Shown here: piece by piece, positions 18,456 through 23,051 of the stretch
Position numbering within the stretch: the first letter of the stretch is position 1
Layout: each line of letters begins with the position of its first letter
Source of the DNA: Gammaproteobacteria bacterium
GTDB lineage: Bacteria > Pseudomonadota > Gammaproteobacteria > Pseudomonadales > Azotimanducaceae
Direction: 5' to 3'
Length of the DNA stretch: 64,000 bases
Assembly: GCA_026707735.1 (NCBI GenBank)
Contig: JAPOWH010000017.1
Coordinates: 1-64,000, forward strand
Position numbers and translations under genes: made by a program
The notes under the pieces: model-generated
What the model saw: only the letters and a program-made list of their open reading frames with translations
The model's database searches: none
What the model was told of the DNA's origin: nothing

Positions 18456-19667
18456 GTGAGTTTCTTTGACTGGTGGTACGGTGTCGTAGGTCTGTCCATT
18501 CCATTGGCGGTTCTGTATGTTCTTACCACGACACACATCACATTCATTGCCATCACACTCTATCTTCACAGACATTCAGCCCATCGCTCGCTTGAACTGC
18601 ACCCCGCGCTCTGTCACTTCTTCAGGTTTGTTGTTTGGTTTACCACGGGAATGGTAACAAGGGAATGGACAGCAGTGCATCGCAAGCATCATGCGTCTAC
18701 AGAGACGGAGGAAGATCCGCACAGCCCAGTTATTCACGGCTTAGCAAACATAATCTGGGGAGGATCGGAGTATTACCGCGACGGCATCACCGAGGAGACT
18801 CTTAGGAGGTACGGAAAGGGAACTCCCGACGATTGGATAGAGAGAAATCTTTACTCTCGTTTTCCATGGGTGGGTCTTTCAATTCTTGCGGTGATCGATT
18901 TGCTGCTATTCGGCGTCATTGGAATCATTGTTTGGTCGCTTCAAATGATCTGGACACCCCTTTGGGCTGCAGGGATTGTCAATGGAGTTGGTCATGCATT
19001 CGGCTACCGCAATTTCGAGACTCAGGATGCTTCGAAGAACATCGTTCCGATTGGAATAATGGTGTGTGGAGAGGAGCTCCACAACAATCACCACACATAC
19101 CCCAACTCAGCCCGATTCTCGTTCAAACCTTGGGAGTTTGACCTGGGTTGGCAATATATCCGCCTCCTGAGCTTTCTGAAGTTAGCCAAGCCGCTGCATA
19201 CCGGTCCAGTGGTCGAACGGGTTCGCGACAAGTCCCACATAGACATGGACACCATTTGGGCTGTGGTGAACGATCGTTTCAGGGTAATGGCCAAATATGC
19301 TGACCATGTGGTCAAGCCCATCGTGAAGCGCGAGCAGCTTGTAGCCCAGGGACCACTTCGTCGACTCTTAAGAGGAGCGCGCAAAGTGCTTTGTTCTCAT
19401 CAGCTGGTTCTTAGAGACAGAGAAATAGACAAGATCGACAAGATCACTATGCAGAGCCCTCGTCTGAAGACGATCTACGACCTGCGCCTCGAACTGAACT
19501 CAATTTGGTCGAAGCGTACTGCAAGCGGCGAAGAACTGTTGAGTGCCTTCAAAAAGTGGTGCTCGAGGGCGGAGGCAACCGGAGTCGACGTCCTGCGAAA
19601 CTTTGTCGCGGAGCTCAAGACCTACACGGTCCCACGGATGGCACGGTCGACGTCAACTACATCCTAG
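18456..19667 (+). CDS. Acyl-CoA/acyl-lipid delta-9-type fatty acid desaturase
   Basis: Membrane di-iron desaturase that introduces a double bond into saturated acyl chains. The three histidine boxes are HRHSAHRS (about residue 38), HRKHH (75) and HNNHH (212), with two pairs of hydrophobic segments. Residues 270-403 form a basic, helical C-terminal extension like that of Pseudomonas-type DesA proteins. The GTG start at 18456 follows an AAGGGG-type ribosome-binding site. It diverges from phyH, and its 3' end overlaps the 3' end of argS by 11 bases on the opposite strand. Confidence 0.92.
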   Translation: MSFFDWWYGVVGLSIPLAVLYVLTTTHITFIAITLYLHRHSAHRSLELHPALCHFFRFVVWFTTGMVTREWTAVHRKHHASTETEEDPHSPVIHGLANIIWGGSEYYRDGITEETLRRYGKGTPDDWIERNLYSRFPWVGLSILAVIDLLLFGVIGIIVWSLQMIWTPLWAAGIVNGVGHAFGYRNFETQDASKNIVPIGIMVCGEELHNNHHTYPNSARFSFKPWEFDLGWQYIRLLSFLKLAKPLHTGPVVERVRDKSHIDMDTIWAVVNDRFRVMAKYADHVVKPIVKREQLVAQGPLRRLLRGARKVLCSHQLVLRDREIDKIDKITMQSPRLKTIYDLRLELNSIWSKRTASGEELLSAFKKWCSRAEATGVDVLRNFVAELKTYTVPRMARSTSTTS

Positions 19668-21372
19668 AAGGGGTCGCTATACCTAGGCAGTCGAGTCCAA
19701 TCCGCAGAGTGTTTGCCGTTCGGGCACACAGGGCAAGTCGACTGTCGCGTACTGCGGGAGCAGCATTCAGTACATTGCAGGTTTCGTAGAACCTCGTGAA
19801 GTGAACAGTTAGGTCGTACAAGTAGCTGCACATGTGATGCGCCTTCCGCTCTTCAATTGATTGGTCAACAGCTTCCTGAAACCGCAATAGACGAATTGCG
19901 AGGTCGTGCTCTGCTGGATGTGAGACTGATGCCGATCTCGGGTCGACGTCCTCTTGCTTCACACCGCCTTTGGTGAATATTGCATTTACGCGCGCAAATG
20001 CATACTGAAGATACGGTGCCGTGTTTCCGTCCAAAGCCAGCATGGTGTCCCAATCGAACTTGTAGTCGTGAGTACGATTCTTCGACAGGTCGGCATATTT
20101 GATAGCACCAATTGCGACTTGGTGGGCAATTTCCCGTTTCAAGTCATCGCTCAAGTGGCCACTCTTTTCTTGGACGACTGTTGCAGCACGTGCGATCCCT
20201 TCATCAATAAGATCTGCAAGCAGTATGTTTGCACCTGAACGCGTCTTGAACGGTTCTCCTTTTGAGTTGAGAATGGAGCCAAACACGTGGTGTTCCAATT
20301 TAACTTCAGGTCCAACAAAGCCAGCCTTGCGAGCGACCGCGAAAAGCATTTCAAAGTGCAGGATCTGTCGCGAGTCAGTGAAATAGAGAACCTGATTTGC
20401 TTTCAATTCCTGGGCGCGATATAGCAGCGTCGCCAAGTCGGTAGTGTGGTAGAGATAGCCACCATCAGATTTTTGTACGAGCATTGGTAGCGGGCTTCCG
20501 TCCTTGCGTTTAAATCCCTCCACGAACACGCATTTCGCGCCATCGGATTCGACGAGCATTTCTGCTGATTCAAGCCTCTCTATCACCAGCGACAAATCGT
20601 CGGAATAGGAGCTTTCGCCGCGAATGTCGTCTTCCGTCAGCAGGACGTTGAGCTTTTCGTAAATCTCCTGCATATGAGCCAGCGAGACACTTAGAAACTT
20701 ACGCCAGGTCGCATTTGCTTGTTCGTCCTTGGTCTGAAGTCTCACCACGGCCTCTCTCGCCTTTTCTGCGAAATGCGAGTCTTCGTCGAACCGACGATTT
20801 GCGGCTATGTAGAGCTGTTCAATGTCGGCGAGGGAATTGTCTAGCTGTTCGCTCGAGTCCTGCTCGTCAAGGTATGCAATGAGCTTTCCAAAATTCGTAC
20901 CCCAATCTCCAATGTGATTCTGACGGACAACTTGATACCCTGCGAGCGCAAGCATTCGAGTGATCGAGTCGCCGATTATGGTGCTCCGCAGGTGGCCAAC
21001 GTGTAGCTCTTTCGCGACGTTTGGAGACGAATAGTCCACGACTATTCGTTGAGCGTCTGTATGGGGAGAAGATATTGGTTCTTCTGCGATGCAGCGAGCG
21101 AGGAACTCGTTGCTGAGAGTAATGTTGACGAAACCGGGTCCTGCGACTTGCACATCCTGTGCCACATCGTCGAGCACGCCTGAGGCGACTAAGCGATTGG
21201 CAAGGTTTCGCGGGTTGGTCTTGAGCGTTTTTGCGGCTGACAGCGCAGCATTCGATTGGTAGTCTCCAAACTCTGGTCGCGTTGCCTGTGCAATTAACGC
21301 GCTCGGATCGTCAAGTCCTTCTTGGGCGAGTGCGGACTCGATCCGGAGCGAAATCTCGGTACGGAGATTAAT
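19657..21372 (-). CDS. argS: Arginyl-tRNA synthetase, apparently initiated at ATT
   Basis: Charges tRNA-Arg. The 571-residue frame has the class I HVGH signature (ELHVGHLRSTIIGD), the KMSK-equivalent loop FKTRSGANI and a C-terminal anticodon-binding domain ending GIATPSRM. The ArgS N-terminal Add-1 domain is encoded in 21372-21178 (INLRTEISLRIESAL, RPEFGDYQSNAAL), but no ATG, GTG or TTG is present there. The first such codon, GTG 21177, would delete the domain. The codon aligned with the usual initiator Met is ATT 21372-21370, preceded by AGGA with seven-base spacing and directly by the TAG of the upstream gene in the same frame. Initiation at AUU, or readthrough of that TAG, is implied. Confidence 0.93.
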   Translation of the reverse strand: MNLRTEISLRIESALAQEGLDDPSALIAQATRPEFGDYQSNAALSAAKTLKTNPRNLANRLVASGVLDDVAQDVQVAGPGFVNITLSNEFLARCIAEEPISSPHTDAQRIVVDYSSPNVAKELHVGHLRSTIIGDSITRMLALAGYQVVRQNHIGDWGTNFGKLIAYLDEQDSSEQLDNSLADIEQLYIAANRRFDEDSHFAEKAREAVVRLQTKDEQANATWRKFLSVSLAHMQEIYEKLNVLLTEDDIRGESSYSDDLSLVIERLESAEMLVESDGAKCVFVEGFKRKDGSPLPMLVQKSDGGYLYHTTDLATLLYRAQELKANQVLYFTDSRQILHFEMLFAVARKAGFVGPEVKLEHHVFGSILNSKGEPFKTRSGANILLADLIDEGIARAATVVQEKSGHLSDDLKREIAHQVAIGAIKYADLSKNRTHDYKFDWDTMLALDGNTAPYLQYAFARVNAIFTKGGVKQEDVDPRSASVSHPAEHDLAIRLLRFQEAVDQSIEERKAHHMCSYLYDLTVHFTRFYETCNVLNAAPAVRDSRLALCARTANTLRIGLDCLGIATPSRM

Positions 21373-22017
21373 CTAGGATTCCTGCGCGGCTAGTCGAATC
21401 TTGGTAGCCACTGGTCCACGATCCCCAGATTGAATCTCATAGCTGACCGGCCGTTCCTTTTCAAGCTCTTTGTCGTCTACTCCAGGCTCCAAATTGGTCT
21501 TATGGAAGAATGCCTGTTCCCCTTTTTCGCTCACAACGAATCCATACGATTGGCGGCTGGAATACGATTTGATGCGACCACTAGTACGGTTTGCCGGGCG
21601 GGATTGCGATCTTTGCGAATGCCGTGCGGCTGCTTTAGTTGACCTCGACTGTCGCGAATTCGAGCGAGATGCTGCTCGATCATTTGACGAACCGCGAGGT
21701 TGCGTTCTCTGGTTTGAATTTCTATCTCGCCCGGAGCCTTGCTGAGCTGCTTCAGGCTTGCCTTGCTTTTCCCTACCGGCACGACGGTTTGGCGACTGTG
21801 ACTCGGCGGATGCCGCTCTAGCTGAGTTGGCTCCCTTTGGGACGCGACGGGCGAAGTTGTAGGCAAGTAGGCCTGTCGACAGGCATGCGACGAACACGAG
21901 AATTGCTAAGGAAATGAAGTTGGATGACAGAAATCGGAGTGTGATTTCCGTGATCAATGCGCACCAGAATAGACTAACGCCTGCAAGCGCAGCGAGAAAT
22001 GTAAGTGATCTAGACAT
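21373..22017 (-). CDS. Membrane-anchored cold-shock-domain protein
   Basis: From ATG 22017 the 214 residues hold two hydrophobic segments (about 5-28 and 33-55), a long low-complexity linker rich in Ser, Arg, Gln and Asn (56-145), and a C-terminal OB-fold cold-shock domain. RNP1- and RNP2-like motifs are YGFVVSEKG and QAFFHKTNL. This suggests an RNA-binding domain tethered to the inner membrane. It sits directly upstream of argS, with no bases between its TAG and the argS initiation codon and in the same frame. A TTG at 22035 is an alternative start. Role unknown. Confidence 0.8.
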   Translation of the reverse strand: MSRSLTFLAALAGVSLFWCALITEITLRFLSSNFISLAILVFVACLSTGLLAYNFARRVPKGANSARAASAESQSPNRRAGREKQGKPEAAQQGSGRDRNSNQRTQPRGSSNDRAASRSNSRQSRSTKAAARHSQRSQSRPANRTSGRIKSYSSRQSYGFVVSEKGEQAFFHKTNLEPGVDDKELEKERPVSYEIQSGDRGPVATKIRLAAQES

Positions 22018-22421
22018 GGTAGGCGACTCGAGCAATGGAAAGTTTGCAAGCCAATCCTAGGCTTGCATCAAAATCTAACAGTTATGTGGAGATGGAGCTG
22101 ACAGTGGGGAAATGCTCTTGGAGCTCCCCCCAACAACCAAGCGTCAATCCACATCAGTTCATTAGTCCTTCCTGAGTTCAAAAAGTTGAACCATGCAGGC
22201 GACTTTGCGAAGTATACGTAAGCTCAAGTGCTGTTTGCGAGTCTCCATCTTCGAGAATCGCAAGTGATCCCACCATCTCACAGGAAACGACCAATAGATC
22301 CGGAAAACTGAGGATCGCCAAACCAACTTGATCCCAATTGTTTGGTGATGTCCAATTCGTAGGTCACTAGCTTGTTAGACGCAAACAACCAAGCTGGCAG
22401 GATGTAAGTCTGCCTTCCGAT
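22018..22421. other. 404-base intergenic region between the cyclophilin and cold-shock-domain genes
   Basis: No convincing coding frame on either strand. It contains small inverted repeats: TGCAAGCC/GGCTTGCA at 22045-22052 and 22060-22067 (seven-base loop), GTTCAA-AAAG-TTGAAC at 22176-22191, and GGCAG/CTGCC at 22396-22414. It should hold the promoter of the cold-shock-domain/argS unit. I could not choose a convincing -35/-10 pair. Confidence 0.5.
22396..22414 (-). terminator. Possible terminator after the cyclophilin gene
   Basis: On the minus strand, just after the TGA at 22422, GGCAG pairs with CTGCC around a nine-base loop and is followed by a T-rich stretch rather than a clean T-run. A weak candidate. 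Confidence 0.3.
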
Positions 22422-23051
22422 TCACTTGTCTCGATATCGTTGCGCGCTAATAATCACTACCTTTTCGACGGGAACGTTCTCGAGTTTGACGCCACCTACC
22501 TCTTCGGTCTTCACCTTGAGCTTCTCGATTGCGTGAACAACGTCCATTCCGCGGGTTACCTTGCCAAACACTGCATAGCCGTCTTCACTTTTCGATTTTG
22601 AGTAGTCGAGGAAGCGGTTATCCTTCGTGTTTATGAAGAAATCAGCCGCAGCCGAATCTGGATGGTCGCCGCGAGCCATGGCGACACTGCCCTTAACATT
22701 GCTCAGACCGTTGCTCGCTTCGTTCTTGATTGTGTCCGGAATGTCCCGAGAATTCATGTCTTGATCAAAACTTCCCGCCTGGATGACGAAGTTTCGGTGG
22801 GCGCGATGGAAAATGATTCCGTCGTAGTGGCCGTCGTCCACGAGAGCCAGAAAGTGTTTCACTGTTATGGGAGCGTCCTTCTCGAAGAGCTCCATCATGA
22901 TGGTCCCGTGAGTTGTATCGAACAAGACTTTTGGGTTTTCTTTGGGTTCGTCTGTCACTTCCTCGCCTTCGGTTTCGACATTGTCCTGCGACACGCCAGA
23001 CATTGCCAAAGCAGCGACGATAGCGCAAAGTAGGTTTCGAATCTTTTTCAT
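22422..23051 (-). CDS. Periplasmic cyclophilin-type peptidyl-prolyl isomerase
   Basis: Catalyses proline cis/trans isomerisation during folding. MKKIRNLLCAIVAALAMSGV is a secretion signal, followed by an acidic linker (residues 23-40) and a cyclophilin domain. Typical family segments: TTHGTIMMELFEKDAPITV, the FHRAHRNFVIQAG strand with the catalytic arginine, SVAMAR, and FFINTKDN. 209 residues, PpiA-like. It is divergent from apbE with a 39-base gap. Confidence 0.9.
   Translation of the reverse strand: MKKIRNLLCAIVAALAMSGVSQDNVETEGEEVTDEPKENPKVLFDTTHGTIMMELFEKDAPITVKHFLALVDDGHYDGIIFHRAHRNFVIQAGSFDQDMNSRDIPDTIKNEASNGLSNVKGSVAMARGDHPDSAAADFFINTKDNRFLDYSKSKSEDGYAVFGKVTRGMDVVHAIEKLKVKTEEVGGVKLENVPVEKVVIISAQRYRDK

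Follow-up and report, generated by a model that had tools for sequence, protein, structure and literature searches.

The window, by which we mean the whole 64,000-nucleotide stretch of DNA analysed here, carries on its minus strand an argS gene (19657..21372) whose product matches class I arginyl-tRNA synthetases in its N-terminal (Arg_tRNA_synt_N, PF03485), catalytic (tRNA-synt_1d, PF00750) and DALR (DALR_1, PF05746) Pfam domains. Directly upstream on the same strand lies a gene (21373..22017) for what appears by eye to be a membrane protein with a C-terminal cold-shock domain (PF00313; residues 152-214, numbered from an in-frame TTG at 22035). The ATG at 22017 was picked by eye as its start. 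The next gene upstream (22422..23051, minus strand) encodes a cyclophilin-type peptidyl-prolyl isomerase (PF00160), and a cyclophilin gene is likewise found upstream of argS in a relative, G014 (L235:4064-4741). At its 3' end, argS overlaps by 11 bases (19657-19667) a convergent ORF on the plus strand (18456-19667) that looks desaturase-like by eye.

Across the end of the upstream gene and the start of argS, the minus strand reads ...GCC GCG CAG GAA TCC TAG ATT AAT CTC CGT ACC GAG ATT... The TAG stop of the cold-shock-domain gene (21373..21375) abuts an ATT (21370..21372) in the same frame and with zero spacing, and a Shine-Dalgarno-like AGGA (21380..21383, minus strand) lies 7 nt upstream of the ATT, both as an earlier note on this DNA had described. 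Translation from the ATT starts INLRTEISLRIESALAQEG... and gives 571 residues, with the stop at 19657. The same note had claimed that the N-terminal domain is devoid of ATG, GTG and TTG; this holds for codons 1-65 of the argS frame in the window but not for the whole domain, which Pfam matches at residues 6-86, as a GTG occurs at codon 66 (21175..21177, minus strand). Being the first canonical triplet in frame, this GTG might be taken as the start of a truncated ArgS. We consider that very unlikely and rejected the GTG because most of the N-terminal domain would be lost, though the residues before codon 66 are conserved across the genus; moreover, the first canonical triplet falls at a different place in relatives. 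Like genes of the class with IF3-sensitive starts, argS combines a non-canonical start with the lack of a fitting canonical alternative, and the ATT is almost certainly its start codon in the window.

The argS start codon in the genus and the family

We searched 18 genomes of the window's genus and found argS in 17 (G012 gave no match). The match in G001 begins at residue 148, and 16 N-termini were compared, window included, from 16 species-level genomes. Codon 1 is ATT in nine of these (G000, G002, G003, G004, G005, G007, G009, G010 and G015) and ATC in seven (G006, G008, G011, G013, G014, G016 and G017). The alignment of relatives' N-termini that the earlier note had proposed as a check on its ATT start therefore bears the start out, a non-canonical codon being kept in 16 of 16 genomes and ATG never being found. 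In G006, where two codons appear to have been inserted, a Ser codon aligns with codon 1 and the ATC is found two codons above it, with an Asn codon next to it as elsewhere; what has been kept is therefore the start triplet and not an Ile at the aligned position. Within the genus, ArgS proteins are as little as 52% identical to that of the window, indicating that the genus is old.

A search of the family found argS in 196 of 206 genomes, or in 179 from other genera once the 17 of the genus are subtracted. The argS start was read in 53 loci representing 32 of the 36 other genera. The exact aligned codon is ATG in 36 loci and GTG in nine (45 of 53), and the remaining eight have ATG or GTG either one codon off (four loci) or three or four codons upstream (four loci). 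Among the 80 titled loci, 30 were read; the eight from the genus have ATT or ATC, whereas ATG or GTG occupies the start, or a place near it, in the other 22. All eight titled genus records are metagenome assemblies (Gammaproteobacteria or Pseudomonadales), which would be the ground for suspecting that a real ATG had been miscalled in sequencing or assembly. We give that explanation a negligible chance, as 16 species-level genomes agree, T and C alternate at the third base and the eight titled records span several accession series (e.g. JAPOXO, VXNM, JAJECH and JAGWBO). From these comparisons we have little doubt that argS initiation would occur at AUY. The gene for an essential enzyme thus apparently begins with the very rare start codons AUU or AUC instead of AUG throughout a genus known from environmental DNA, and start-site annotation limited to ATG, GTG and TTG would truncate its product.

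ATG is one substitution away from either ATT or ATC. On an ArgS tree of the 16 genomes, in which good support is limited to 5 of 13 inner branches, we counted by hand at least two T/C third-base changes at the start codon, with no G and no A. As a control, conserved fourfold codons were taken from the argS alignment. Seven of 56 such columns lack G, all of them Gly, and G is missing from none of the 37 non-glycine columns. Third positions by this control show a good mix of bases, from which the start codon departs. Because only one of the 56 columns is restricted to C and T in all 16 genomes, a figure that serves as a yardstick and not an exact probability (neither columns nor genomes are independent draws), the argS start codon appears to be under selection and is probably held at AUY. 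We lean, with some reserve, towards AUY being kept for its regulatory effect. The alternative is that IF3 in this genus lost part of its discrimination and AUY starts drifted in and were tolerated, with argS one of several such genes and its codon not regulatory; we regard this as possible rather than likely. Neutral drift of this kind should let ATG return, one substitution being sufficient, yet ATG is absent from all 16 genomes, and this lack of return favours a regulatory device over a tolerated consequence of altered IF3.

The upstream gene and its distance to argS

The ORF before argS ends in a cold-shock sequence like that of the window in ten genomes, which form clade A (judged by eye, with a Pfam scan for the window alone). 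Clade B, with six genomes, has at this place a membrane-type ORF of 75-81 codons with no cold-shock part, again by eye. The distance from the upstream stop to the ATY is 0 nt in the window, 9 nt in nine genomes and 17-23 nt in six, so that in all 16 the start lies within 0-23 nt of the stop, as in translationally coupled pairs. Judging from this spacing, argS is likely to be translationally coupled to the gene before it. Of the earlier note's proposal that argS is AUU-initiated and coupled, the codon is strongly supported by the genus-wide ATT or ATC, whereas for the coupling the gaps are simply what one would expect. For the remaining nine genomes of clade A, the stop is part of TGAGGG (two genomes), TGAGAG (five), TGAGCG (one) or TGAGCT (one), some of which look Shine-Dalgarno-like by eye. 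No Shine-Dalgarno sequence was evident by eye before the six clade B argS genes, which makes AUC initiation harder to picture there and counts against AUY initiation.

Readthrough of the stop codon, or frameshifting from the upstream gene, would offer another way to translate the argS N-terminus, as an extended protein. The upstream gene does share the argS frame in 12 genomes out of 16, where the gap is 0, 9 or 18 nt. However, the upstream gene is out of frame in four clade B genomes (gaps of 17, 19 or 23 nt), its C-terminus differs between the clades, its stop varies (TAG in the window, TGA in nine genomes, TAA in six) and G004 has two stops ahead of the ATT, an in-frame TGA and then a TAG at the place of the window's TAG. 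We judge such a product extremely unlikely. Amber readthrough to a fusion of the cold-shock protein with ArgS, which the earlier note had entertained, does not agree with TGA or TAA in the other 15 genomes, the varying gap and frame or the absence of a cold-shock part from clade B. A programmed readthrough fusion was also considered and rejected, the stop (TAG, TGA or TAA) not being conserved and the frame not being continuous over gaps of 0, 9, 17, 18, 19 and 23 nt. To judge from the two stops of G004, the abutting TAG of the window is probably a remnant left after the loss of an earlier stop.

Initiator tRNA, IF3 and the proposed limit on argS initiation

An altered initiator tRNA that decodes AUY was considered and rejected. 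The normal initiator-tRNA anticodon arm, GGGCTCATAACCC (CAU), occurs once in each of 17 of the 18 genomes (G001 has no exact match), and tRNA-Met(cat) was called in all four of these loci that were scanned. IF3 was found in all 18 genomes of the genus, cut short in G012. Among the 17 genomes with an infC N-terminus, 11 apparently start the gene with ATT, ATC or ATA, and the six of clade B probably with GTG; in the window genome (L160), an in-frame ATG also precedes the ATT of infC by 12 codons. Since infC probably begins with GTG in clade B, the usual IF3 autoregulatory start would be absent there, while argS keeps ATC.

Where both proteins were available, in 17 genus and 26 outgroup genomes, IF3 was compared with the bL20 encoded close by (G074 was dropped for IF3, and G062, G186 and G051 for bL20). 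Mean IF3 identity to outgroups is 53.9-61.2% for the genus versus 65.0-71.6% for outgroup members, with each of the 17 genus proteins below any of the 26 from outgroups; for bL20 the ranges are 67.1-73.6% and 69.3-79.8%. In the genus, 7-16 of 75 near-invariant IF3 columns are changed versus 1-4 of 49 in bL20. By alignment (E. coli numbering), R168 is changed in 16 of the 17 genus IF3 proteins, R131 in nine, R116 in eight, R112 in seven and R129 in three, and R116 and R131 are each also changed in one outgroup. We take these five arginines to act in 30S binding or in fidelity. Missing from the IF3 of the genus (L153-L169) are several residues of the C-terminal domain that hardly vary across the family.

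Both the changed columns and the lost arginines speak for drift under a less discriminating IF3, as does the rejection of non-canonical ligands by the isolated IF3 C-terminal domain, described in a review (PMC4611024). Against it, G000, G004 and G015 retain both R112 and R116, and some of the IF3 signal reflects a fast lineage, as bL20 too is somewhat diverged in the genus.

The best reading of the locus, and from sequence comparison a quite likely one, is that argS is AUY-initiated, coupled to the upstream gene and throttled by IF3. In such an arrangement, the AUU or AUC would be decoded by the ordinary fMet-tRNA with its CAU anticodon, on ribosomes that had only just terminated at the stop of the preceding gene, 0-23 nt away. 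Discrimination by IF3 against AUY would make initiation at argS weak and inverse to IF3 activity, and ArgS would be made at a low rate linked to IF3, as for infC and sigR. Given initiation at AUY, known systems lead us to expect with good confidence that argS would be IF3-sensitive. The arrangement suggests that start-codon proofreading limits the amount of ArgS made. If this is true, a core translation enzyme can be governed through initiation that IF3 limits, and the divergence of IF3 in these genomes would provide a natural system for learning how IF3 reads the third base.

We know of no reason for argS, an aminoacyl-tRNA synthetase gene, to answer to IF3. The pcnB gene of E. coli reportedly has an AUU start (Binns and Masters, 2002, are said to have described it); there, as is proposed for argS, AUU limits the translation of a single gene, although the gene is a different one and does not encode an aminoacyl-tRNA synthetase. 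According to PMC5472188 and PMC13009471, infC starts with AUU in E. coli, AUC in Streptomyces and AUA in S. aureus. Both infC and argS are translation genes that keep a non-canonical AUH start within a clade, and IF3 represses infC as it would argS; unlike argS, infC encodes IF3 itself and is autoregulated. The closest parallel is Streptomyces sigR, with GTC in 32 of the 34 species, GTT in the other two and repression by IF3; the authors of that study saw no sign of such a sigR start in other actinobacterial genera (PMC5472188). It shares with argS a genus-level conservation with third-base variation, and its IF3 repression has been shown; it differs from argS in using GUC rather than AUY, in encoding a sigma factor, for which the balance with the anti-sigma factor is important, and in having been tested experimentally. 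In S. aureus, cvfC1 (AUU) and ccpN (AUA) have starts that are conserved in staphylococci and lower the yield (PMC13009471). They resemble argS in their conserved non-canonical starts, the reduction in yield being a staphylococcal result, and are directed by an extended Shine-Dalgarno sequence, whereas that of argS is short in clade A and not evident in clade B.

In vitro, more IF3 cut the share of full-length product from an AUU read by a CAU anticodon to 31.1% (PMC10158994). One reconstruction (PMC5622118) counts a single AUG-to-AUU switch among 61,358 ancestral AUG starts; against so very low a frequency of switches from canonical starts to AUU, AUY on the argS of a whole genus is notable. 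A literature search on argS or aminoacyl-tRNA synthetases and AUU/ATT starts, conducted mostly at title level, found no bacterial argS with an AUU or AUC start.

Other genes with apparent non-canonical start codons

A survey of other genes of the genus drew on approximately 554 kb from G000, 814 kb from G004, 420 kb from G014 and, for each of 13 relatives, 17-20 kb. A first pass covered 479 ORFs in 162 ortholog groups, and a larger pass covered 886 ORFs of at least 150 codons, with pairs 40-86% identical, in 364 groups, a number that is not a clean gene count and from which no rate was derived, many rows resembling antisense or wrong-frame ORFs. The larger pass left out repeat candidates from genomes other than G000 and G004. 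A looser screen gave 97 candidates among 695 ORFs tested, mostly short or wrong-frame ORFs. By eye, the clear cases are argS, infC, a class III CoA-transferase and a PfkB-family sugar kinase, and an ABC-F type ATPase and a PEP carboxykinase are possible ones. An outgroup pair, two genomes of genus g36, proved too alike and too rich in GC (67.6%) for the same survey, and the 28 groups kept from it resemble wrong-frame ORFs.

The class III CoA-transferase gene (L274:3477-4688, minus strand; relatives in L278-L284 and L286) could be read in nine genus orthologues but not in the tenth, of G016; the first codon is ATC in eight of the nine and ATT in the other. By eye, each of the nine has GGAG 7-9 nt upstream; in G013 and G017, canonical triplets also occur further upstream in frame. 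At this position or close to it, 14 of 16 outgroup loci carry ATG or GTG, and the other two, both from genus g27 (G080 and G086), have ATY. The IF3 of G080 carries the family's usual residues in the region compared. The PfkB-family sugar kinase (L259:10990-11943, minus strand; also L308 and L309) has ATC or ATT at its conserved first codon in G000, G004 and G015 only; all six genomes of clade B have ATG there, and G001 has GTG. Alternatives to the ATC or ATT include a TTG four codons in (G004) and an in-frame GTG about 20 codons upstream (G004 and G015); only G000 has none.

That the CoA-transferase, the PfkB kinase and perhaps the ABC-F gene also lack a canonical start at a conserved N-terminus again favours drift of tolerated AUY starts. 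On the other side, the ATY start of the CoA-transferase in g27, together with the usual IF3 of G080, tells against a simple rule by which a diverged IF3 permits AUY, and the AUY-start cases come from a survey within the genus. A more speculative reading, which we find doubtful, is that an IF3 without the family-conserved C-terminal arginines co-evolved with a small AUY regulon. Start-codon proofreading would then be rewired, initiation fidelity would set the capacity for charging arginine-tRNA, and the regulon would comprise argS, the class III CoA-transferase, the PfkB kinase (in one subclade) and infC where AUH is kept.

The ABC-F type ATPase gene (L357:625-2484, plus strand; also L375) has CTG at the place of the Met in G000 and G004, with no in-frame canonical start upstream, and is perhaps a gene with a CTG start in two genomes. 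In a likely ATP-type PEP carboxykinase, so labelled by eye (L356, ORF from 16234, plus strand; also L375), an ATC or ATA lies near the N-terminus; G000 has no canonical codon upstream of it, and G004 has an ATG a few codons in.
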